NCBI GenBank assembly: GCA_027490265.1
Contig: JAIXYL010000123.1
Span: 1-42,898 of the forward strand
Origin: Sediminibacterium sp.
GTDB lineage: Bacteria; Bacteroidota; Bacteroidia; Chitinophagales; Chitinophagaceae
Reading direction: 5' to 3'
DNA length: 42,898 nucleotides
Part shown: piece after piece, positions 24,756-36,232 of the stretch
How positions within the stretch are numbered: position 1 is the first letter of the stretch
How the letters are laid out: the number at the start of each line of letters is the position of its first letter
Made by a program: the position numbers and the translations under genes
The notes under the pieces: generated by a model
The model's input: the letters and a program-made list of their open reading frames with translations, nothing else
What the model was told of the DNA's origin: nothing
The model's database searches: none

Positions 24756-25388
24756 TTAAAAGTCTTTCAGCAACTTAATCTCATTTCTGTATAATAAAAT
24801 GCGGCCATCGTTTTCCAATTGCTTTAACAATCTTGAGATGACCACTCTAGATGTAGCCAATTCATCTGCTATCAAATAATGAGACGCTTTGATCACACTG
24901 GATCCAGTAACTTGTTTTTTTTCGCGCAAGTAGGCAATCAAACGTTCATCTAATTTGTGAAAAGCAATGGATTCAATATTTTTAAGCAATTCTAAAAAGC
25001 GATCATTGAAGCTGCGCATGATATAATTTTTCCAACTAGGATATTTACAAAGCCACTCTTCTAATTTAATATGTGGAATAGCCAATAATTCAACAGCTTC
25101 TTCTGCAATAGCTTTCACTTCACTTTTTTTGGCTTCTACACAACAACTATAAGCCATTGAACAACTTTCATTGTTAGACAAATAGTACAGCAATATTTCT
25201 TTCCCATTGTCGTCTTTGCGCAAGACTTTAATGGTGCCTTTTAATATTAAAGGCATATATCGAATATACTTACCATAATCCATGATTAAATCTCCCTCAT
25301 TGAATTGTCTGACTTCGCCAAACTGATACATTTCAGTCACCAATGCTGGTTCAAAAATCGCGTCAAAAGGTGTTACGTTTCTATTCAT
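24756..25388 (-). CDS. Crp/Fnr-family transcriptional regulator
   Basis: cNMP-binding-like domain with CSMAYSCCVEAKKSEVKAI; C-terminal HTH ASHYLIADELATSRVVISRLLKQLENDGRI. Confidence 0.92.
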   Translation of the reverse strand: MNRNVTPFDAIFEPALVTEMYQFGEVRQFNEGDLIMDYGKYIRYMPLILKGTIKVLRKDDNGKEILLYYLSNNESCSMAYSCCVEAKKSEVKAIAEEAVELLAIPHIKLEEWLCKYPSWKNYIMRSFNDRFLELLKNIESIAFHKLDERLIAYLREKKQVTGSSVIKASHYLIADELATSRVVISRLLKQLENDGRILLYRNEIKLLKDF

Positions 25389-25390
25389 GA

Positions 25391-26818
25391 TTAAAAATGG
25401 TAGTTGAGTACAAAGTTATACAGAACCATATTCACTTTATTGATTTCGTATTTCGGCTGATTGTGCAATTCGCCCTGATTCATTTTGCTAACAATGAGTA
25501 ACTGTGCATCCAATCCTTGAAAGAAACCAGCAAAAGCATATCGAATATCTGCATTCACTTGAATATAAGACGGCAGGCCATATTTATTCAATTTTGTATC
25601 AGTTACATCAGGCAATTTAAAATACCCTGCAGCTAAATTGACTGTCCATTGTTTCTGAGGGATTTTATACGCCGCTTTGACTACGAAGGCTTGCACGTTT
25701 CCAAAACCCTCATTACGTTCTCTTGGCATGAACGTAAAAAATGGATCTCTCCCCCATTCTCTTGGCATTAAATATCTGCCTTCATTGGTAATGCGATTAT
25801 AGTTCAAGGACAGATCCCAAACAGGGGACTTATAACCCAATCTTGCACCAAAACTTAAAGCACTACTGTTTTTTTCCATATACCTTTTTGAGGGATCATG
25901 ATTACCGCCATTCCCAAGGGCATGCTGTTTGACCAATTGAAATGAAGTATAATAGTGATGGTGCGCTAAATTGGAAGGTAATTGATAGTCTGCTTGAATC
26001 ATTGCCGTATTAAACACATTTGGCAAATACAAATTCCATGCATGCAATTGAACTTGTTTAGTGGGTTCATGATGTATGCCGACTTGCCAAAGGTTACTGG
26101 CTTCTACATTGCCTGAATAGTCAGACTTAGTACCATCAACATTTACCCCTGATGGATAAACACCGATTGACTCCCCAACACCATACCACTTTACAGTACC
26201 CCTCGGAGAAATGGCATACAACAAACCACCTTCAATTTTAGTTTTGGGCAACGCATTGATGACCATCCAAAGTCCATCAACACCGGTTGGGCGCATTCTG
26301 CCATCTTGCAAATTGATAAACGGCGTATTGATTAACTGTCTTCCTAAAACAACCGTTGATTGTTTATAATTGTATTTGAGGTATAACTCTTCTAATCGAT
26401 CTAAATCATTGGTATTAGTAGGATTTTCAACATCAAATAAAGGCGTTTCAAACCTGCTGGTTTGGCCACTGAGCGGATCTTTTTTGGTTAAATCCGATGA
26501 GCCGATATTGAAAATATAAAAACCACTGACAGCAAACTGAAACCCTTTGAATCTGGCTGTTTCAAAACGTATACCCCCACCTACCGCGTTGGCATAAAAA
26601 TCTGACAACCCCTTTGCATTATCAGTTGTCATAAAAAAATATCTAAAATGTCCATTCACTGTACCCGACTTAAATGCGTGTAAAAGAGAAGATGTGTCAA
26701 TTGTAAGGTCTTTTTTTCCTTTCCACATATCAGGTTTAGTGATGAGTTCTTGGTGTTGGGAAAATGCATCGCTACACCATAACAAAACTGTTATAGAAAA
26801 AAATATCAGCCGCATCAT
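25391..26818 (-). CDS. OprD-like outer membrane porin
   Basis: Signal peptide, SGTVNGHFRYFFM, YLKYNYKQSTVVLGRQLINTPFINLQDGRMRPTGVDG, C-terminal FVLNYHF. Confidence 0.8.
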   Translation of the reverse strand: MMRLIFFSITVLLWCSDAFSQHQELITKPDMWKGKKDLTIDTSSLLHAFKSGTVNGHFRYFFMTTDNAKGLSDFYANAVGGGIRFETARFKGFQFAVSGFYIFNIGSSDLTKKDPLSGQTSRFETPLFDVENPTNTNDLDRLEELYLKYNYKQSTVVLGRQLINTPFINLQDGRMRPTGVDGLWMVINALPKTKIEGGLLYAISPRGTVKWYGVGESIGVYPSGVNVDGTKSDYSGNVEASNLWQVGIHHEPTKQVQLHAWNLYLPNVFNTAMIQADYQLPSNLAHHHYYTSFQLVKQHALGNGGNHDPSKRYMEKNSSALSFGARLGYKSPVWDLSLNYNRITNEGRYLMPREWGRDPFFTFMPRERNEGFGNVQAFVVKAAYKIPQKQWTVNLAAGYFKLPDVTDTKLNKYGLPSYIQVNADIRYAFAGFFQGLDAQLLIVSKMNQGELHNQPKYEINKVNMVLYNFVLNYHF

Positions 26819-26888
26819 GAATAATTTTCGCTTTATCTAAGTGAATAATCAACCCCTGTAACTTGCGTGAGCAAAGTAGCAGGACCAT

Positions 26889-27959
26889 CTAATATGATTG
26901 CATTGGTTTAAATGGACCATATTTATGTTGTGCAGGACTAAATTTGTCTGCATAAGGGCCAAACGGATGATCGATGGGTTTTTTAGAAATATCTGGCCAA
27001 TCCTTGGGTACAGACAAATGCTTTCTAGGTTTACTTAGTACATATGCAGAAACATCCCATGCGTCTTCATCAGACAATTGAGGGTTTTCATGTGTAACGC
27101 CCAAAGGCATATTGTACTTAATGTACTTTGCAAAATTACTAATCCGAAATAACCCTGCACCATCATTAAAACTATTTTTACCCCATAAAGGTGGGTAACT
27201 GTATTCTACCTTATCAGGATTTAACACCCCTTCACCATTGGCTTGGTGACAGCTCTGGCACTTGGTTTCATAAACCAATTGTCCTTTTATAGGATCGGCT
27301 GCTCGATCTAAAAATGCAAGCGCTTTTAATCCTGACCCATTGGCATTTTCACCCTTAGGTACATTTGATCCTATATAATTGATATAAGCTACGATGGCCT
27401 GCATTTCTTTGCTAGTTGTATCTAACGCAGTACCATTCAAACTTCTTTCAAAACAATCATTGATCCGTTTATAAATATTTTCTGAGCTACCACTTCTAGT
27501 TCTAAACTTAGGATATGAAGCAGCCACGGCCCCGTAATTATTGCCATAAACCAATGTGCCAGCTTGTAAATGGCAATTCTGGCAATTTTGTCCATTGCTT
27601 ATTTGTAGCACAGAACCATTGGGTCCTAAATATTTTGCGGTGTGTGCTATTAACTCTCGACCATAGTACACTTGTTCTTTTTTTTCTGGGTCGGTTATCA
27701 GATCCAATGCTTTAGGTTGCCAATAAGCTCTTGCAACTTTAGATTGTTGATTGTTTTCCAATTGCGTTTCAGGGGAAGCGGGTGTTAATGCAATTTTATT
27801 AGATGACTTGAGCCATCCAGCAATGGTATCAGCATAATAAATAACCAAAGGCAACAACACAATACTGATGATTAACACAATAATCAGATTCAGCATGCGC
27901 TGTATCATTTTGATTAATCGTTGTTCTTTCTTAAATGGTTTCTTTGGTTCCATGAGCAA
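26889..27959 (-). CDS. Diheme cytochrome c, thiosulfate dehydrogenase (TsdA)-like
   Basis: Two CXXCH (NGQNCQNCHLQAG, KCQSCHQANGEGV); RSGSSENIYKRINDCFERSLNG contains the conserved TsdA-type Cys; N-terminal TM anchor. Confidence 0.85.
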   Translation of the reverse strand: MLMEPKKPFKKEQRLIKMIQRMLNLIIVLIISIVLLPLVIYYADTIAGWLKSSNKIALTPASPETQLENNQQSKVARAYWQPKALDLITDPEKKEQVYYGRELIAHTAKYLGPNGSVLQISNGQNCQNCHLQAGTLVYGNNYGAVAASYPKFRTRSGSSENIYKRINDCFERSLNGTALDTTSKEMQAIVAYINYIGSNVPKGENANGSGLKALAFLDRAADPIKGQLVYETKCQSCHQANGEGVLNPDKVEYSYPPLWGKNSFNDGAGLFRISNFAKYIKYNMPLGVTHENPQLSDEDAWDVSAYVLSKPRKHLSVPKDWPDISKKPIDHPFGPYADKFSPAQHKYGPFKPMQSY

Positions 27960-27971
27960 TGTGCTTGTTAA

Positions 27972-28385
27972 TTAATGTGGCAATTTTTTCATTAACACGC
28001 CATATAGGTAAGTCCCTACAATGGCAAAAAAGAACACAATGATCATCGATAAAAAGCCATAGCCAATATTTACAACCATCGGACCTGGGCATGCCCCACT
28101 TAAAGCCCAGCCTAATCCAAAAATGATCCCACCAATTAAATATCTGGCAACAGATTTGTCTTTTGGCAAGAAAAGAATGGGGTTGCCATGAAAATCACGA
28201 ATATTGAATTGCTTAATAATGGCAACACCAATAACGCCTAATGTTACCGCAGTTCCAATAATGCCATACATATGAAATGCTTGAAATCGAAACATTTCTT
28301 GAATTCTAAACCAAGACACTGCTTCAGATTTTGCCATCACAATGCCAAATACTATTCCTAATAATAAAAATTTAATCAACTTCAT
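27972..28385 (-). CDS. YeeE/YedE (DUF6691-type) half-transporter
   Basis: GGIIFGLGWALSGACPGPMVVNIGYG. Confidence 0.88.
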   Translation of the reverse strand: MKLIKFLLLGIVFGIVMAKSEAVSWFRIQEMFRFQAFHMYGIIGTAVTLGVIGVAIIKQFNIRDFHGNPILFLPKDKSVARYLIGGIIFGLGWALSGACPGPMVVNIGYGFLSMIIVFFFAIVGTYLYGVLMKKLPH

Positions 28386-28388
28386 CTA

Positions 28389-28946
28389 TTATAATATTAA
28401 AGGCATTATTAAATAAGTCATCACCAATCCTCCAATAAAGAAACCAATTACTGCAATTAAAGATGGCAGTTGTAAATTTGATAACCCACTGATGGCATGA
28501 CCAGAGGTACAACCTCCCGCATATCTAGACCCAAACCCTACCATTAAACCACCAAGGGCTAAGATTAAAAAACCTTTAACCGTGAATACAGCATCCCACC
28601 CAAATAATTCCTTTGGCTGCAAAGATTCAGGTGCCGCAATGCCCATTTTACTTAAATCCTGAATGGTTGCATTTGAAATATTGACAGGGCCCCCATCTGA
28701 TAAAAACTGGGCTGCAATAAATCCACCAATGATGGAGCCGATTAAAAAAACAATATTCCAAGTTTGGGCCTTCCAATTAAAATCAAAAAATTTATTGGTT
28801 TTACCTAATCCTGCCGCGGCACAAATAGTGCGCAGATTTGAAGAGAATCCAAAGGATTGTCCAAAATACAGAAGGAAAAACATGATGCTTGCAATCATGG
28901 CACCAGAAAACCACCATGCCCATGTTTGTGTAATTAATTCACGCAT
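28389..28946 (-). CDS. YeeE/YedE family half-transporter
   Basis: GGLMVGFGSRYAGGCTSGHAISGLSNLQLPSLIAVIGFFIGG. Confidence 0.9.
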   Translation of the reverse strand: MRELITQTWAWWFSGAMIASIMFFLLYFGQSFGFSSNLRTICAAAGLGKTNKFFDFNWKAQTWNIVFLIGSIIGGFIAAQFLSDGGPVNISNATIQDLSKMGIAAPESLQPKELFGWDAVFTVKGFLILALGGLMVGFGSRYAGGCTSGHAISGLSNLQLPSLIAVIGFFIGGLVMTYLIMPLIL

Positions 28947-28958
28947 ATAGATATCTGA

Positions 28959-29792
28959 TTACTTTAAATGAAATGAAATAATTGGTTTAAATAAATGATT
29001 GATCAATTTTTCTGTAGCACTTTGATGCAGTAAACCCGCTTTCCCATGCGTACCAATACAAATGATATCCATATTCATCATTTGATTAAAATGAATGACC
29101 CCATTTTCCACATCTTTATCGTTCACAATATGACATTCAAAACTGTTGATGGCATTTAAATGTGCAAAATGTGCCATATTTAATTCAATTTGATCTTTAA
29201 CTGCATGAATATCCCCAGAGACAATTTGTAAAAAATGAAGGGTAGGATTAAACGCTACCAAAATTTTTTGCATTAGGCTTAAATCTTCTTTTGTTGGTTT
29301 AGAGAAATCATGAACCAATAACAAATGATTAATGCTTAAGTCAGACCTATCACACATTAAAGACAAAACTGGTATAGCAGATTTTCTTGCTACCATTTGC
29401 GTAGAACTACCAGATATTTTTTCTTTTATTCCCCATGCTCCTTTTGTACCCATGACGATTAAATCTACTTGATGGGTATTTGCGAATTGAACAATGGCAT
29501 TGGTTGGCTTTCCTAAAACCAAATGTGTTTGAATTTGCGCTCCATAGATTTGTTTCAAACTGGCCAATTGTCTTTCTGCAATGTCTTTTTGTTGATTGAT
29601 ATAAGCAATATCAATCTCTCCACAAGTACTGATTTGTCCATTGGCGTCCATGGTTACAGTATCAGGCACTGCTAATACATGCAAAAAATGAATATCAGTC
29701 TTGATTTTCTCTTCAAGCTTTTTTACCATAAGAAAAGCAAATTCAGATTGAACAGAGAAATCAGTTGGAATTAAAATTTTTAATGCGTTCAT
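28959..29792 (-). CDS. Universal stress protein (tandem UspA)
   Basis: ILIPTDFSVQSEFAFLMV; LIVMGTKGAWG...GSSTQMVARKSAIPVLSL; second domain IICIGTHGKAGLLHQSATEKLINH. Confidence 0.9.
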   Translation of the reverse strand: MNALKILIPTDFSVQSEFAFLMVKKLEEKIKTDIHFLHVLAVPDTVTMDANGQISTCGEIDIAYINQQKDIAERQLASLKQIYGAQIQTHLVLGKPTNAIVQFANTHQVDLIVMGTKGAWGIKEKISGSSTQMVARKSAIPVLSLMCDRSDLSINHLLLVHDFSKPTKEDLSLMQKILVAFNPTLHFLQIVSGDIHAVKDQIELNMAHFAHLNAINSFECHIVNDKDVENGVIHFNQMMNMDIICIGTHGKAGLLHQSATEKLINHLFKPIISFHLK

Positions 29793-29805
29793 TTGGCTTG
29801 ATTAA

Positions 29806-30117
29806 TTAGTGAACAAATTGAGCCACATTTTGCCAAGTGCCTCCATTTATGACATTGTTAATGCCTTGTTGCTCTAACAATGATTTGGCCATTCCACTTC
29901 TATTACCGCTTCTACAAAAAACAATAACACTGGTTTTATTTTTGAATTTAGCAATCTCTTTGGTAATATTATCCAAAGGGATATTGACTGAGCCTTTAAC
30001 ATGGCCATCAGCAAATTCGCCTGGGGTTCTAACATCTACTAAAAAAGCACCTTCGTTGATTTTTGATGTTAAATCAACTGAAGGCCCGCCTCCAAATAAT
30101 TGACTAAAAATACTCAT
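29806..30117 (-). CDS. Rhodanese-like protein
   Basis: FLVDVRTPGEFADGHVKGSVNIPL; active loop CRSGNRS. Confidence 0.93.
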   Translation of the reverse strand: MSIFSQLFGGGPSVDLTSKINEGAFLVDVRTPGEFADGHVKGSVNIPLDNITKEIAKFKNKTSVIVFCRSGNRSGMAKSLLEQQGINNVINGGTWQNVAQFVH

Positions 30118-30125
30118 AACTTGAT

Positions 30126-30419
30126 TTATTTAAATTTTTCTAAAATATTGACTAAACCCGCTTTTGGCACCACACCGCTTTGTCTCCAAACGGGTTGTCC
30201 TTCCTTAAACACAATTAATGTGGGTACCCCTTGAACTTGGTAAGCAGCAGCGGCCTGTGGATTTTTATCAACGTCAACTTTAATAATGGTGACTTGATCA
30301 CCCATTCGGTCTTTTACTTCTTTTAATATAGGCGACATCATTTTACATGGCCCACACCATTCTGCGAAAAAATCTACCAATACTGGCTTTTCTGATTGTA
30401 TCATTTCATTAAAAGTCAT
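30126..30419 (-). CDS. Thioredoxin
   Basis: VDFFAEWCGPCKMMSPILKEV. Confidence 0.95.
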   Translation of the reverse strand: MTFNEMIQSEKPVLVDFFAEWCGPCKMMSPILKEVKDRMGDQVTIIKVDVDKNPQAAAAYQVQGVPTLIVFKEGQPVWRQSGVVPKAGLVNILEKFK

Positions 30420-30435
30420 TGCACTAAAATTTAGG

Positions 30436-30645
30436 TTAAACTGATGTACTGCTTGATTCTTTTTGAAACATACCCAATAATAATGCGCCCATTAAAGCGC
30501 CATAAAGGGTACTATTGAGCGGTTTTGATGTGATGGCACAAGTACCAGAACTGCAACCAACTTGTTGCCAATAAATATAGCCTGCAATGGCACCCAAGAT
30601 TGCTCCAAACAAATACAATTTATGTTGACTAAACCACTTCTTCAT
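30436..30645 (-). CDS. DUF6132-like small membrane protein (listed ORF start too long)
   Basis: MKKWFSQHKLYLFGAILGAIAGYIYWQQVGCSSGTCAITSKPLNSTLYGALMGALLLG. Confidence 0.75.
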   Translation of the reverse strand: MKKWFSQHKLYLFGAILGAIAGYIYWQQVGCSSGTCAITSKPLNSTLYGALMGALLLGMFQKESSSTSV

Positions 30646-30874
30646 ATTGTACATCTTTTTGTGGGTTATCGGTTTTTTTAACTGGTGTATAGCAACCTCC
30701 AGTACCACAGCATCCAGTATTGAATAATGCCATGAGGGTAAACAATAAACCAGCGATACCAAAAACGCTGTCTCTGTTAACAAATGCCTGTATCATAATG
30801 CCAATACCAGCCAACAACCGAAGCACACGCATCAAACTCCAATGATTCAAAATTGTTTCTTTCATAGCATACAT
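30629..30874 (-). CDS. DUF2892-like (YgaP membrane domain-like) small membrane protein
   Basis: WSLMRVLRLLAGIGIMIQAFVNRDSVFGIAGLLFTLMALFNTGCCGTGGCYTP. Confidence 0.75.
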   Translation of the reverse strand: MYAMKETILNHWSLMRVLRLLAGIGIMIQAFVNRDSVFGIAGLLFTLMALFNTGCCGTGGCYTPVKKTDNPQKDVQYEEVV

Positions 30875-30885
30875 TTATAATCATA

Positions 30886-30893
30886 CAAATCTA
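30886..30893 (-). promoter_or_regulatory. Predicted -7 element (TAGATTTG)
   Basis: Exact TAnnTTTG downstream of the 30912-30933 palindrome. Confidence 0.6.
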
Positions 30894-30911
30894 ACATTAC
30901 AAAAAGCCGAA

Positions 30912-30933
30912 AATGGTAACAAAAGTTACCATT
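30912..30933. promoter_or_regulatory. Perfect palindrome AATGGTAAC-AAAA-GTTACCATT, predicted Crp/Fnr operator (site 1)
   Basis: 9-bp perfect arms, N4 spacer, intergenic, upstream of the DUF2892-to-cytochrome transcription unit. Confidence 0.75.
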
Positions 30934-30940
30934 CAGATTG

Positions 30941-31381
30941 CTAATAAAGAAAGGGGAATAATTTATAGGAAAATTTCTGGTAAGACTTGTATTTAGGAAA
31001 CTTCTCTGCCAGCATTTTCTCTTCCCAATTCAATTTGATAATTAAAACGGTACATAATCCAACCCAAATCAACAGGTTGATCCAATAAAAATTAACCACA
31101 ATAAGACCAGCAGTAAACAATAATACTGCGGTATACATTGGGTGCCGAATAGACCGATATGGCCCATTTGTCACCAAATCTGCTTCCATATGAGGGATGG
31201 GAAGGATCCTAATTTTACTAACACGCATCACCCAAATGGCCCATGCACCTAATATTATTCCGAAGGCACATAACAACAATGCCAATAGGTTTAACTGAAA
31301 TGGATATGCAGCAATAACCAGCCATCCAATAGCCGAAAATTGGAGCACAACTAGGCTGTATGCATTGAAGCGATTATGCAT
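30941..31381 (-). CDS. ICMT/NnrU-like membrane methyltransferase-family protein
   Basis: TNGPYRSIRHPMYTAVLLFTAGLIV; NWEEKMLAEKFPKYKSYQK. Confidence 0.82.
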   Translation of the reverse strand: MHNRFNAYSLVVLQFSAIGWLVIAAYPFQLNLLALLLCAFGIILGAWAIWVMRVSKIRILPIPHMEADLVTNGPYRSIRHPMYTAVLLFTAGLIVVNFYWINLLIWVGLCTVLIIKLNWEEKMLAEKFPKYKSYQKFSYKLFPFLY

Positions 31382-31817
31382 GTGCTATTTTAACAATCGC
31401 ATCTAATTTAACATCAGATTTAATTGAATTTGAAATCAAACAAGCTTTTTCGGTTTTCTCTAAAATACGCATGGCTCTTTCTGCCTGATGTTCATCTGTA
31501 ATAACCAAAACTGGTTTTAATAATACCGTCGTTATTTGATACTTCCCTTCGGGTTGTTCTAATAACCCAATTGCTTTACAATCCAACGAAAGATATTCTA
31601 GTTTAGAATTTTCTGCAATTGCCAAAAATGTTGTCATATAACATGCATTCACAGCAGCCACTAACAAATGTTCTGGCGACCAAATACCTGGCATCCCTTT
31701 GGTGAATTCTGGAGGTGTTGCCACTTCTATAGAATGATTTAATACAGGGGAACTGATGGTGCCTTTCCGATCACTGGTCCAAACTAAATCTACTTCATAA
31801 TGATGTGTCTGGTTCAT
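31374..31817 (-). CDS. OsmC-family protein
   Basis: GMPGIWSPEHLLVAAVNACYMTTFLAIAE ... EKACLISNSIKSDV (two Cys as in Ohr/OsmC). Confidence 0.88.
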   Translation of the reverse strand: MNQTHHYEVDLVWTSDRKGTISSPVLNHSIEVATPPEFTKGMPGIWSPEHLLVAAVNACYMTTFLAIAENSKLEYLSLDCKAIGLLEQPEGKYQITTVLLKPVLVITDEHQAERAMRILEKTEKACLISNSIKSDVKLDAIVKIAHA

Positions 31818-31819
31818 AA

Positions 31820-33241
31820 TTAAATGTTTAAAAGTTTAGATGGACAAACAAAATCAGTTTTTGGAACTTTGGTTTCAGCAATGGCTTTATAACCTCCTGC
31901 TATTTCTGTGAAATTTCTATACCCTCTTGCTTGTAAAATACTGGCTGCAATCATGCTTCTATATCCTCCCGCGCAATGCATAAAGAAATGTTTTTGTGGA
32001 TCAATCTCTTTGATCCATTCATTGATATAAGACAAAGGCTTATTAATGGCATTGTTTACATGTTCTGCAGTATATTCAGATTCACGACGTATGTCAAAAA
32101 CAAGGTCATCATTGTCATCAAAATTTTGTTCAAACAGCTGCGCACTAATCCTTTCCACTGTATCTACAATTTTACCCGCTTTCAACCAAGCTTCATACCC
32201 ACCAGACAGATATCCAATAACTTGATCAAATCCAACCCTACTTAATCGAGTCACTGCTTCTTCTTGCATCCCATCATTACATACTAATAAAATGGGTTGC
32301 TTCACGTCAACGATTAATGCACCTACCCATGGGGCAAAATCTCCATTTAAACCAATATTAATTGACTGCGGAATATATCCCCTGAAAAACAGATCAGGGT
32401 CTCTGGTATCTAAAATAAGTGCTCCTGTTTCTTCAGCAGCTACTTCAAATGCTTCCACTTCCAAGGCACGTGTACCATTACTCAACACTTGATCGAAAGA
32501 AGTATAGCCTTGTTTATTCATGGCTACATTCATCCCGAAATAACCAGGAGGTGGCAATAAACCATCTGTAACGGCTTTAATAAAACTTTCTTTATCTGGC
32601 TGATTTAATGCATAATTCACCAACTTTTGATTGCCAAGTGAATCAACCGTTTCTGTCATCATGTTTTTTCCGCATGCACTTCCTGCACCATGTGCTGGAT
32701 AAACAATCACATCATCAGCCAATGGCATGATTTTGTTTAACAAACTTTCATATAATAATCCAGCTAATGCTTCCTGTGTCATATTAGCTGCTTTTTGGGC
32801 CAAATCGGGTCTTCCTACATCACCTAAGAAAAGTGTATCCCCGCTAAAAATACAATGGTCTTTGCCTTGCGCATCAATTAATAAGAACGTACTGCTTTCC
32901 ATTGTATGACCCGGTGTATGCAATACTTTTATAGTAATATCACCTACTTTAAATAATTCACCATCATTTGCCGTGATGCAATCAAATGATGCTTTTGCAG
33001 TTGGACCATAAACAATGGCTGCACCTGTAGCCTGACTCAAATCAACATGACCACTCACAAAATCAGCATGAAAATGTGTTTCAAAAATATACTTCAATTT
33101 AACTTGGTCTTTTTCAAGTCTGTCTAAGTATGGTTTTGTTTCACGCAACGGATCAACAATTGCAGCTTCGCCATTTGAGACAATATAATAAGCCCCTTGC
33201 GCCAAACAGCCAGTATAAATTTGTTCAATTTTCATAACCAA
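31820..33241 (-). CDS. Metallo-beta-lactamase (persulfide dioxygenase-like)/rhodanese fusion, copy 1
   Basis: ETHFHADFVSGHVDL, HTPGHTMESSTFLL, FSGDTLFLGDVGRPDL, PAHGAGSACGKN; C-terminal rhodanese loop CAGGYRS. Confidence 0.93.
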   Translation of the reverse strand: MVMKIEQIYTGCLAQGAYYIVSNGEAAIVDPLRETKPYLDRLEKDQVKLKYIFETHFHADFVSGHVDLSQATGAAIVYGPTAKASFDCITANDGELFKVGDITIKVLHTPGHTMESSTFLLIDAQGKDHCIFSGDTLFLGDVGRPDLAQKAANMTQEALAGLLYESLLNKIMPLADDVIVYPAHGAGSACGKNMMTETVDSLGNQKLVNYALNQPDKESFIKAVTDGLLPPPGYFGMNVAMNKQGYTSFDQVLSNGTRALEVEAFEVAAEETGALILDTRDPDLFFRGYIPQSINIGLNGDFAPWVGALIVDVKQPILLVCNDGMQEEAVTRLSRVGFDQVIGYLSGGYEAWLKAGKIVDTVERISAQLFEQNFDDNDDLVFDIRRESEYTAEHVNNAINKPLSYINEWIKEIDPQKHFFMHCAGGYRSMIAASILQARGYRNFTEIAGGYKAIAETKVPKTDFVCPSKLLNI

Positions 33242-33292
33242 AATTTTAAGTAATTAGATATGTAAATGTCTATGATAACCTGAAGTATTTTG

Positions 33293-33306
33293 GTATCAAA
33301 AGTTAC
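33293..33306. promoter_or_regulatory. GTATC-AAAA-GTTAC, predicted Crp/Fnr operator (site 2)
   Basis: Same motif class with one arm mismatch; upstream of the 33241 gene start. Confidence 0.6.
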
Positions 33307-33323
33307 TTTTAAGAGACGCCCAT

Positions 33324-33638
33324 TTACTTTTGAGCAGTATATGCTTCGGGGGATTTCAAGAATGCTTCTTTACACTCAGCAGCACAAAATCCGTAGACCT
33401 TTCCTTTAAAATGGGCCGTATCAGCAATGCCAGCAGTCACAGGCATGCCGCAAATAAAATCGCGTTTATTTTGGACCATATCTGCTGTAAAATGATGGCT
33501 TGTATCAGCATGATTGACGGTCATTTGTGATCCATATTTCACTGGCGCAACAGCAGCATCTTTTGATGGTTCACTATTGGTGCAAGCCAATAAAAAAACC
33601 AATACTAACACACTCAAAAATTCAATTGATTTACGCAT
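33324..33638 (-). CDS. YHS-domain lipoprotein
   Basis: Lipobox LLAC; DFICGMPVTAGIADTAHFKGKVYGFCAAECKEAFLKSPEAY. Confidence 0.9.
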   Translation of the reverse strand: MRKSIEFLSVLVLVFLLACTNSEPSKDAAVAPVKYGSQMTVNHADTSHHFTADMVQNKRDFICGMPVTAGIADTAHFKGKVYGFCAAECKEAFLKSPEAYTAQK

Positions 33639-33688
33639 ATATCTATATTTTATGATGACAAAGTTAACTATTGAGTAATGGCTAAAAA

Positions 33689-33702
33689 ATGAGTATTATC
33701 AT
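33689..33702. promoter_or_regulatory. Variant inverted repeat ATGAG-TATT-ATCAT upstream of the YHS gene
   Basis: Near-palindrome at the same distance from -7 element TAACTTTG (33659-33666) as the other sites. Confidence 0.35.
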
Positions 33703-33703
33703 A

Positions 33704-33737
33704 AAAAAAGCTGCCTTCATGGGGCAGCTTTTTTCAA
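33704..33737 (-). terminator. Rho-independent-type terminator for 33754-35157
   Basis: aaaaaaagctgcc-ttcat-ggggcagctttttt. Confidence 0.8.
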
Positions 33738-33753
33738 AAACTATAAGGACGAT

Positions 33754-35157
33754 TTATTCAACGATGACTGGTTCACCCGTACTCACCCATTCATTCATGC
33801 CTGCAGAATAATTCACCACATTGTTAAATCCATTTTTTGCCAAAATAGAAAATGCAATAGATGCTCTGTCTCCACCTTGACAATGAATCATCACTTTTTT
33901 GTCTTTACTAATTTTATGTAATTGGTTAGGCAATGTGCCTACAAATACGTTATCTGCGCCTTTAATATGCCCTGCATTAAACTCAGCTACCCCACGCAAA
34001 TCAACCACTTGCACAGATGGATCATTCGCCAATTTTTTGGCTTCATCCAATTCAACCAAAGTTACTTTTTCCAATTGTCCACCTGCTTGGGTGTATGCTT
34101 CTACTGAAGGCAAATAACCTGCAATATTATCTAAACCAATCCGCATCAACTTTCTAGTTAAATCATCTAACATTGATTCGTCCGCCAAAATCATAAATGG
34201 TTCATCATAGGTTAAATACCATCCTGCCCAAGTAGCAAATGAATTATTGCCTTGAATATTTAAACTGCCTGGAATAAACCCTTCTGCAAAAGCAGCTTTT
34301 GGTCTTGCATCCAATAATTTCATGCCATTTTGCATATTGGCTTTTACTTCATCAATCTTCAATTGCTGAAGCTTTGGCACTTCCGTTAACAGCGGTCGAT
34401 TCACTTTATTCAAATGCTTCATCATAGCAAAATACTTTGGTGGCTCAGGTTGATCGGCTAATAAGTATTTCACAAATCCTGTTTCATCGGTTGGGTATTG
34501 AAATGCCCAATTCCGAGCTTTCTCATAACCCACTGTTGTACTTGGTACAGCACCCAATACTTTACCACAAGCTGAACCTGCACCGTGGCCTGGCCAAACC
34601 TGAATATAATCTGCTAGCGCATTAAATTTTTTGATGCTTTGATACATTTGTTTGGCTCCTTTATCTTGCGTACCAATCATTCCTGCAGCTTTTTCAAGTA
34701 AATCAGGTCTGCCAATGTCTCCAACAAAAACAAAGTCTCCTGTGAACAACATCACTGGTTCATTACTTGCAGGATGATCCGTTAATAAAAAGCTGATACT
34801 TTCTGGCGTATGACCTGGGGTATGCATCACTTTAAAACTTAGATTACCCAGCTTTACGATATCGTTGTCTTTTAAACCTACATGAGGAAATTCATATTCC
34901 CAACCTTCTCCACCTTCATCAGATAAATACAATTGTGCACCTGTTAATGCAGCAAGCTCTCTTGATCCCGCTAAAAAATCTGCATGAATATGTGTTTCAA
35001 AAATATGTGTGATGGTCATATTATTGGCCTTCGCAATTTCAAGATACGTATCTACATCTCTTTTGGCGTCAATGACCGCAGCTACTCCCGCTTTTTGGCA
35101 ACCAATAAAATAACTGGCTTGCGCTAAACTCTTGTCGTAAATGTGTTGAAAAAACAT
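33754..35157 (-). CDS. Metallo-beta-lactamase (persulfide dioxygenase-like)/rhodanese fusion, copy 2
   Basis: ETHIHADFLAGSREL, HTPGHTPESISFLL, FTGDFVFVGDIGRPDL, PGHGAGSACGK; C-terminal rhodanese loop CQGGDRA. Confidence 0.93.
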   Translation of the reverse strand: MFFQHIYDKSLAQASYFIGCQKAGVAAVIDAKRDVDTYLEIAKANNMTITHIFETHIHADFLAGSRELAALTGAQLYLSDEGGEGWEYEFPHVGLKDNDIVKLGNLSFKVMHTPGHTPESISFLLTDHPASNEPVMLFTGDFVFVGDIGRPDLLEKAAGMIGTQDKGAKQMYQSIKKFNALADYIQVWPGHGAGSACGKVLGAVPSTTVGYEKARNWAFQYPTDETGFVKYLLADQPEPPKYFAMMKHLNKVNRPLLTEVPKLQQLKIDEVKANMQNGMKLLDARPKAAFAEGFIPGSLNIQGNNSFATWAGWYLTYDEPFMILADESMLDDLTRKLMRIGLDNIAGYLPSVEAYTQAGGQLEKVTLVELDEAKKLANDPSVQVVDLRGVAEFNAGHIKGADNVFVGTLPNQLHKISKDKKVMIHCQGGDRASIAFSILAKNGFNNVVNYSAGMNEWVSTGEPVIVE

Positions 35158-35221
35158 ATGTTTTAATTTAAAGATGATAATAATGATTCAGCAAATATCC
35201 TTGGCTATTTAAACCCATTTG

Positions 35222-35235
35222 GTAACATTAGTTGC
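35222..35235. promoter_or_regulatory. GTAAC-ATTA-GTTGC, predicted Crp/Fnr operator (site 3)
   Basis: Motif with one mismatch; -7-like GATATTTG (minus strand, 35192-35199) at the same spacing as site 1. Confidence 0.6.
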
Positions 35236-35237
35236 AT

Positions 35238-36053
35238 TTAGTGGCCACCACCAGATCCAAAGAATAATTCCTTTACGATGATGTAAATACCCATAATCAA
35301 GACAAACCACCCGAATGCTTTTTTGAGCTTTTCACCGGGGATTTTTTTAGACAAAAGAATGCCAATAAATATGCCAATAAATGCAAAAGCGGTAAAAGTT
35401 AACAATAAGCGCCAATCGATCACTTGAGCACCTTGTAAATCACCAGTAAAACCAATTAACGATTTGGCAGCGATAATAAATAATGAGGTTCCAACAGCTA
35501 ACTTCATGGGCATTTTGGCCAATAATACCAAAGCTGGAATAATTAAAAAACCGCCACCAGCGCCTACCAAACCAGTTAAAATACCAACGATTGTTCCTTC
35601 TAATAAAATCATTGGATAGTTATACACCATGGGGGCATTGTCAACCACATTAGCATTTTTGTTGGGTTTAATCATACTCACAGAAGCCAAAATCATCACA
35701 ACAGCAAACAATAACATCAAGGCAATTGACTTTGTAATCACCAATGATCCAATTGATGTTATCTCAGCAGGTATCAATGGCACAAGCCATAACCTGGTAG
35801 CATACACTGCTGCAATTGACGGAATACCAAAAATTAGAACCGTTTTAAAATCAACGCTTTTTTGGGTAGCACTTTGAATGCCACCTACCAAAGCAGTGGA
35901 TCCAACAATAAATAAAGAATAGGCCGTTGCTAATACGGGATCTACGCCCATTACATAAACCAGAATTGGAACTGTTAATATAGATCCCCCACTGCCGATT
36001 AAGCCTAATGAAATACCTACTAAAGCAGCGAGTAAAAAACCAACAATAACCAT
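35238..36053 (-). CDS. TauE/SafE-family sulfite/sulfur-compound exporter
   Basis: LVGISLGLIGSGGSILTVPILVYVMG; GILTGLVGAGGGFLIIPALVLLAKMPMKLAVGTSLFII. Confidence 0.93.
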   Translation of the reverse strand: MVIVGFLLAALVGISLGLIGSGGSILTVPILVYVMGVDPVLATAYSLFIVGSTALVGGIQSATQKSVDFKTVLIFGIPSIAAVYATRLWLVPLIPAEITSIGSLVITKSIALMLLFAVVMILASVSMIKPNKNANVVDNAPMVYNYPMILLEGTIVGILTGLVGAGGGFLIIPALVLLAKMPMKLAVGTSLFIIAAKSLIGFTGDLQGAQVIDWRLLLTFTAFAFIGIFIGILLSKKIPGEKLKKAFGWFVLIMGIYIIVKELFFGSGGGH

Positions 36054-36101
36054 TGATTAAAATTTAGTCAGCAAAACTGCGCAATCTATTTAACTGAGAA
36101 A

Positions 36102-36115
36102 GTGACAAAAGTTAC
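36102..36115. promoter_or_regulatory. GTGAC-AAAA-GTTAC, predicted Crp/Fnr operator (site 4)
   Basis: Motif with one mismatch; -7-like CAGTTTTG (minus strand, 36072-36079) at the same spacing as site 1. Confidence 0.6.
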
Positions 36116-36158: not shown

Positions 36159-36161
36159 GCG

Positions 36162-36232
36162 AGGTCCCGAGCGGATTCGAACCGCTGTAGAAGCTTTTGC
36201 AGAGCTCTGCCTAGCCACTCGGCCACAGGACC
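36162..36232 (-). tRNA. tRNA-Cys (GCA)
   Basis: Minus strand: GGTCCTGTGGCCGAGTGGCTAGGCAGAGCTCTGCAAAAGCTTCTACAGCGGTTCGAATCCGCTCGGGACCT; anticodon GCA. Confidence 0.95.

Follow-up and report, generated by a model that had tools for sequence, protein, structure and literature searches.

Four promoters in a sulfur gene island of Sediminibacterium sp. share an operator of the form GTAAC-N4-GTTAC at a fixed distance from the -7 element. The island lies in a stretch of 42,898 nt (contig JAIXYL010000123.1), referred to here as the 42.9-kb window. On sequence evidence, the four sites very probably let one regulator turn on persulfide- and thiosulfate-breakdown genes in Sediminibacterium. They are read as operators for a Crp/Fnr-family protein encoded in the same island, which would act as a class II activator (probability about 0.87). 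All coordinates are those of the window, and the elements are listed on the minus strand, as are the genes. PDO denotes a persulfide dioxygenase.

30916 to 30929, minus strand: operator 1, DUF2892 promoter, perfect (plus strand GTAACAAAAGTTAC, minus strand GTAACTTTTGTTAC)
30886 to 30893, minus strand: -7 element of promoter 1 (DUF2892), TAGATTTG
33293 to 33306, minus strand: operator 2, PDO1-OsmC-ICMT promoter (plus strand GTATCAAAAGTTAC, minus strand GTAACTTTTGATAC)
33263 to 33270, minus strand: weak -7 element of promoter 2 (PDO1), GACATTTA
35222 to 35235, minus strand: operator 3, PDO2 promoter (plus strand GTAACATTAGTTGC, minus strand GCAACTAATGTTAC)
35192 to 35199, minus strand: -7 element of promoter 3 (PDO2), GATATTTG
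36102 to 36115, minus strand: operator 4, TauE/SafE promoter (plus strand GTGACAAAAGTTAC, minus strand GTAACTTTTGTCAC)
36072 to 36079, minus strand: -7 element of promoter 4 (TauE/SafE), CAGTTTTG

All four operators were matched in the sequence where a first-pass annotation of this DNA had placed them. Operator 1 forms the core of a 22-bp palindrome (30912-30933). The fixed distance claimed in that annotation was found in 4/4 promoters, where on the minus strand a 22-nt spacer follows the final C of the operator and the octamer starts at base 23. The weak octamer GACATTTA agrees with the octamer consensus at 4 of 6 bases, as had been stated. Besides these four operators, no match to GTAACNNNNGTTAC with one mismatch or fewer was found in the window. 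Shuffled windows contained a mean of 0.65 sites at the same limit and 0/100 shuffles reached four.

The 2.87-Mb genome, which is 98% complete, was scanned by pattern searches with mismatch limits. There were 79 sites with at most one mismatch and the perfect operator occurred once, at 30916. The motif is not similarly dense elsewhere, as the genome rate predicts approximately 0.14 sites per 5.2 kb where four were observed. A reversed-pattern control gave 511 matches versus 79 and was set aside because the reversed string is a different sequence with its own frequency. A composite of operator, N22 and TAnnTTTG was found with zero mismatches only at the 30916 promoter (DUF2892). Allowing two mismatches gave seven composites genome-wide, three in the island, three inside open reading frames (ORFs) and one intergenic on contig C13. 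The last (G000 contig C13:3777-3820, L131) has two mismatches and lies outside the island, 100 nt upstream of a DUF983 gene. DUF983 genes of two relatives (L164, L172) also have a composite site, and the DUF983 gene is likely a fifth target of the regulator.

Among named relatives, the regulators closest to this one came from Sediminibacterium species and related metagenome-assembled genomes (MAGs) and were 91-97% identical. Upstream regions of the orthologous TauE, PDO2, PDO1 and DUF2892 genes were taken from seven such genomes and aligned, a footprinting check proposed in the first-pass annotation. The four operators and four octamers were kept in 7/7 congeners, and the 22-nt spacers diverged while the flanking blocks stayed. 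Operator 1 reads GTAACCTTTGTTAC in the seven congeners and stands before DUF2892 in most named loci holding that gene. Its octamer offset is 23 here and in 5/7 congeners and 24 in 2/7; the offset for the PDO1, PDO2 and TauE promoters is 23 in 7/7. All 14 bases of operator 2 are the same, followed by GAAATTTA, GAATTTTA or GAGTTTTA as the octamer. Operator 3 reads GCAACAAATGTTAC or GCAACAAAAGTTAC with an octamer, GATATTTG, identical in 7/7. Operator 4 reads GTAACTTTTGTAAC and its octamer CAACTTTG or CATTTTTG, with the offset unchanged. Deviant operator bases were also kept, namely GATAC in the PDO1 half-site and GCAAC in that of PDO2, as were the weak octamers of PDO2 (GATATTTG) and PDO1 (GANNTTTA) and the sequence CANNTTTG at TauE. 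This conservation of weak elements suggests that promoter strengths are tuned.

The spacing recurred in more distant relatives. In 80 same-family loci (sites with at most one mismatch, Val-type or Ala-type regulators, offsets 10-44 scanned) a perfect TAnnTTTG followed the site at offset 23 in 15/114 orientations and at 24 in 3/114, with none at any other offset scanned. Glu-type loci, searched with their own Glu-type motif, peaked at the same offset. Pooling the relatives gave 144/153 composites at offset 23 and 9/153 at 24, these being the two offsets scanned. A phylum-wide set comprised 27 loci, of which the majority belonged to other families, orders and classes. Here most Val-type regulators had composites at 23 or 24, many of them perfect (e.g., L280, L285, L286, L290, L298). 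A profile of 163 sites showed information in the operator and octamer and little in the spacer. In no site of this profile did a TTG start at positions 12-15 after the operator end, the expected place of a -33 box. The shared operator is thus borne out by congener footprinting, by the peak that relatives show at offset 23 and by recurrence across the phylum.

Transcription start site mapping in Flavobacterium psychrophilum placed TAnnTTTG at -12 to -5 (PMC9723704). With this -7 position and the measured spacing, the operator would span -48 to -35 and its centre would fall at exactly -41.5, where the first-pass annotation had put it approximately. This is the class II position. The -7 boxes of the four island promoters are mostly imperfect. 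Operator position and weak core elements together argue for activation rather than repression. At class II promoters of E. coli the CRP dimer at -41.5 contacts RNA polymerase and replaces the upstream core element. The island promoters would resemble these in the Crp-type dimer centred at -41.5, the RNA polymerase contact and the replaced core element. They differ in the half-site (TGTGA in E. coli, GTAAC here), in the -7 box, which is the Bacteroidota sigma-A TAnnTTTG, and in the regulator, where a Cys-rich segment occupies the region of the cAMP pocket.

The regulator is encoded in the same island.

24756 to 25388, minus strand: Crp/Fnr-family regulator, 210 aa (PF00027 and PF13545 above cut-off, CRP-like predicted fold)

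Its N-terminal cNMP-binding and C-terminal HTH_Crp domains are features of the Crp/Fnr superfamily. The predicted structure was CRP-like (mean pLDDT 81, pTM 0.54) and the best solved matches were all Crp/Fnr proteins. The recognition helix is SRVVISRLL, in which R181 and V182 correspond to residues 180 and 181 of E. coli CRP. An alignment of 81 orthologues has R181 and R186 (Arg at CRP positions 180 and 185) without exception, and Val at residue 182 in every row as in the window protein. Orthologues in relatives sit within sulfur gene clusters carrying the motif. The protein had been named earlier as the likely cognate regulator, and it is the best-supported candidate since its orthologues adjoin such sites and residue 182 covaries with the half-site. 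Other Crp-type proteins of the genome (C92, STESCIRL; C37, LRSLNREL; C75, TPETLSRL) were rejected as none has the Arg-Val pair. An orthologue 75% identical, of Bacteroidota type, was present in a MAG named Streptomyces griseus (L240, CALPIT020000139.1), which is probably misnamed or contaminated.

The window clade has Val at residue 182, which is equivalent to Glu181 of E. coli CRP, and the sister clades have Glu. Val regulators pair with GTAAC/GTTAC and Glu regulators with GTSAC/GTCAC. The covariation was counted at the distal half-site, which is free of stop-codon constraint. C was the third base there for 25/28 Glu proteins and 1/24 Val proteins (Fisher p 3e-10, not tree-corrected), and on the tree the Glu label must have changed three times or more. 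The genetics of E. coli CRP at residue 181 agrees in direction with this rule. Residues 180/181 were already linked to the bases of Crp/Fnr sites by Rodionov et al. 2005 (PMC1274295), and neither the residue-base rule nor the motif string, known from HcpR2 in the same paper, is new. In many relatives (L049-L058, L063, L070, L071, L105, L112 and others) the operator starts inside the stop codon of the regulator itself, as G-TAA-C or G-TGA-C, with the following gene under its control. The G-TAA-C overlap occurs with Val and some Glu regulators and G-TGA with other Glu regulators. Stop codon and half-site therefore coevolve.

The genes behind the four operators are as follows.

24756 to 30874, minus strand: probable operon from operator 1 (ORF table, Pfam, TsdA structures)
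30941 to 33241, minus strand: PDO1 (metallo-beta-lactamase plus rhodanese, CstB-like), OsmC and a PEMT/ICMT-like protein
33754 to 35157, minus strand: PDO2, a second metallo-beta-lactamase plus rhodanese fusion (Pfam)
35238 to 36053, minus strand: TauE/SafE-family transporter (PF01925, E 1.6e-41)

The first operon begins with DUF2892, DUF6132, thioredoxin, rhodanese and USP genes. These are followed by two YeeE/YedE (Sulf_transp) genes, a TsdA-like cytochrome c, an OprD-type porin and the regulator. The DUF2892 unit had been described as ending at the cytochrome and probably continues beyond it as far as the regulator gene; there may be a further promoter in the 70-bp gap that precedes the porin gene. 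The cytochrome matched thiosulfate dehydrogenase TsdA (E 5e-42). Structure matches, run for PDO1, were 3tp9 (E 3e-66), 3r2u (E 6e-53), which is presumably CstB of Staphylococcus aureus, and ETHE1 4chl (E 4e-14). PDO1 and PDO2 are both metallo-beta-lactamase plus rhodanese fusions like CstB/PRF. Behind composite sites in relatives were DUF2892 (37), PDO (15), rhodanese (8) and TauE (5) genes. SQR-like and CoA-disulfide-reductase-like proteins, peroxiredoxin and DUF983 were also present there, these families being named by eye.

In the proposed mechanism the regulator dimer would bind GTAAC-N4-GTTAC centred at -41.5 as a class II activator. It would overlap the place of the -33 element, contact RNA polymerase and rescue promoters with mostly imperfect -7 boxes. 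The genes turned on would be the persulfide dioxygenases, TauE/SafE, rhodanese, thioredoxin, the YeeE sulfur transporters and the TsdA-like cytochrome. The regulator would activate its own gene as well; such autoactivation is probable because the operon that follows the strongest site has this gene close to its end.

Some observations weigh against this reading. There are only three independent pairs on the tree for the residue-base covariation, too few for significance by themselves, and it has exceptions in a Glu regulator with GTTAC (L051) and a Val regulator with GTCAC (L052). The close orthologues L203 and L204 (78% identical) have no composite site within 20 kb. TolC/RND efflux operons are among the targets in relatives, with TolC (named by eye) behind 28 sites, and the signal may therefore be broader than sulfur.

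The signal is the least certain step. Cys76, Cys82 and Cys83 are invariant in the 81 aligned orthologues and Cys114 is nearly so. In the model the three cysteines map to a short helix (residues 77-84) that corresponds in position to the CRP cAMP-binding cassette, within a low-confidence stretch. By eye in the alignment, the motif of a cAMP pocket (GE...R-S/T) was not found; the region reads ESCSMAYSCC...KKSEV with no Arg-Ser pair. The position of Cys76/82/83 and the nature of the targets suggest a thiol switch for reactive sulfur, which these residues would read at the place where CRP holds cAMP. Direct sensing of reactive sulfur by the regulator is plausible, at somewhat below even odds. A sister clade with the same operator and targets (L293, L297, L298, L299, same-family TARVVV) keeps only Cys76, with Gly-Gly in place of Cys82/83. 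Cys76 may be enough by itself in that clade, or else the signal is a different one.

The broader proposal is of a regulon across the phylum Bacteroidota in which a Crp/Fnr protein directly senses persulfide or polysulfide via invariant cysteines and activates sulfur-oxidation genes. This is put forward tentatively. If true, the protein would be a kind of persulfide sensor distinct from CstR, SqrR/BigR and FisR, and DNA specificity would have been switched naturally between GTGAC and GTAAC through changes at one residue. No Crp/Fnr persulfide regulator in Bacteroidetes was found in the open-licence literature searched, nor any Crp/Fnr protein with class II placement at such genes. As far as could be found, a Cys-rich Crp/Fnr activator of reactive-sulfur genes across Bacteroidota would be new. 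In water, soil and gut the Bacteroidota are abundant heterotrophs, whose control of persulfide and thiosulfate oxidation appears undescribed in searchable papers. The analysis names a regulator and an operator, gives the promoter geometry with single-base accuracy, lists the targets and points to three cysteines as candidate sensors and to a natural residue-to-base specificity swap. Regulon prediction in further Bacteroidota genomes is possible with the composite pattern.

Operators and activation may be as proposed with a different signal, such as metal, redox or electrophile stress, in a thiol-protection response. This concerns only the signal part of the explanation and is a real possibility, though on the doubtful side. 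In relatives the regulator shares an operon with the TolC/RND efflux genes, some sites precede HMA-like or peroxiredoxin genes, and the related clade that keeps only Cys76 has CGG and not CCC. Most targets, however, including the whole island, are sulfur-related (PDO, TauE, rhodanese, YeeE, TsdA, SQR-like, CoA-disulfide-reductase-like). The efflux operons of L213 and L216 follow the same operator and run TolC-HlyD-RND-small protein-DUF2892, with the regulator gene at the end.

That the sites serve an HcpR2-type regulator of nitrosative stress, with the sulfur island only a side target, is very unlikely. The published HcpR2 motif, GTAACnnnnGTTAC, is identical to the island consensus (PMC1274295). 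HcpR is also a Crp/Fnr protein, Glu is lost at CRP position 181 in both systems, and P. gingivalis HcpR (9day) was among the fold matches of the regulator, but its sequence match was weak (E 3e-4). HcpR2, known in Bacteroides, has Pro (or Ser/Gln) at position 181 and hcp as its main target (PMC1274295), whereas the window regulator has Val, three invariant cysteines and sulfur targets. No Prismane family (hcp) gene was found in the 98%-complete genome, and the regulator orthologues lie in sulfur gene clusters. HcpR2 membership was rejected on Val at residue 181 and the absence of hcp, despite the identical motif.

Equally improbable is that the protein binds these operators as a repressor and releases them on modification like CstR. 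A comparable gene set does have a known persulfide regulator that represses: in the S. aureus cst operon CstR controls tauE, the CstB persulfide dioxygenase-sulfurtransferase and SQR (PMC5480029). The target sets are alike, as a predicted CstB-like PDO-rhodanese fusion and TauE are here under a shared operator. CstR is a CsoR-like dithiol repressor, however, and the protein here is a Crp/Fnr protein in an activator position. The predicted fixed centre at -41.5, the operator in place of the -33 element and the imperfect -7 boxes are needs of class II activation, and a repressor would not need single-base phasing across 100+ promoters. Chance palindromes in AT-rich intergenic DNA can be dismissed, since the motif is short and AT-rich with 79 one-mismatch sites in the genome but enrichment, single-offset phasing and phylum-wide recurrence oppose chance and the congener conservation already contradicts it.

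The first-pass annotation had compared the operators with the FNR site. The N4 spacing is shared with FNR/DNR boxes (TTGAT-N4-ATCAA), but the likeness is geometric only; the half-site bases and recognition residues differ. FNR-type oxygen sensing was rejected as the regulator has no N-terminal Cys cluster for Fe-S, its first Cys being residue 76.

A YHS-domain gene (33324-33638) lies between PDO2 and PDO1 and has no operator of its own. A terminator-like hairpin was visible upstream of it at about 33700-33735. A tRNA-Cys gene and terminator (36161-36232) are located directly upstream of the TauE operator, and the tRNA end is kept in the seven congeners.

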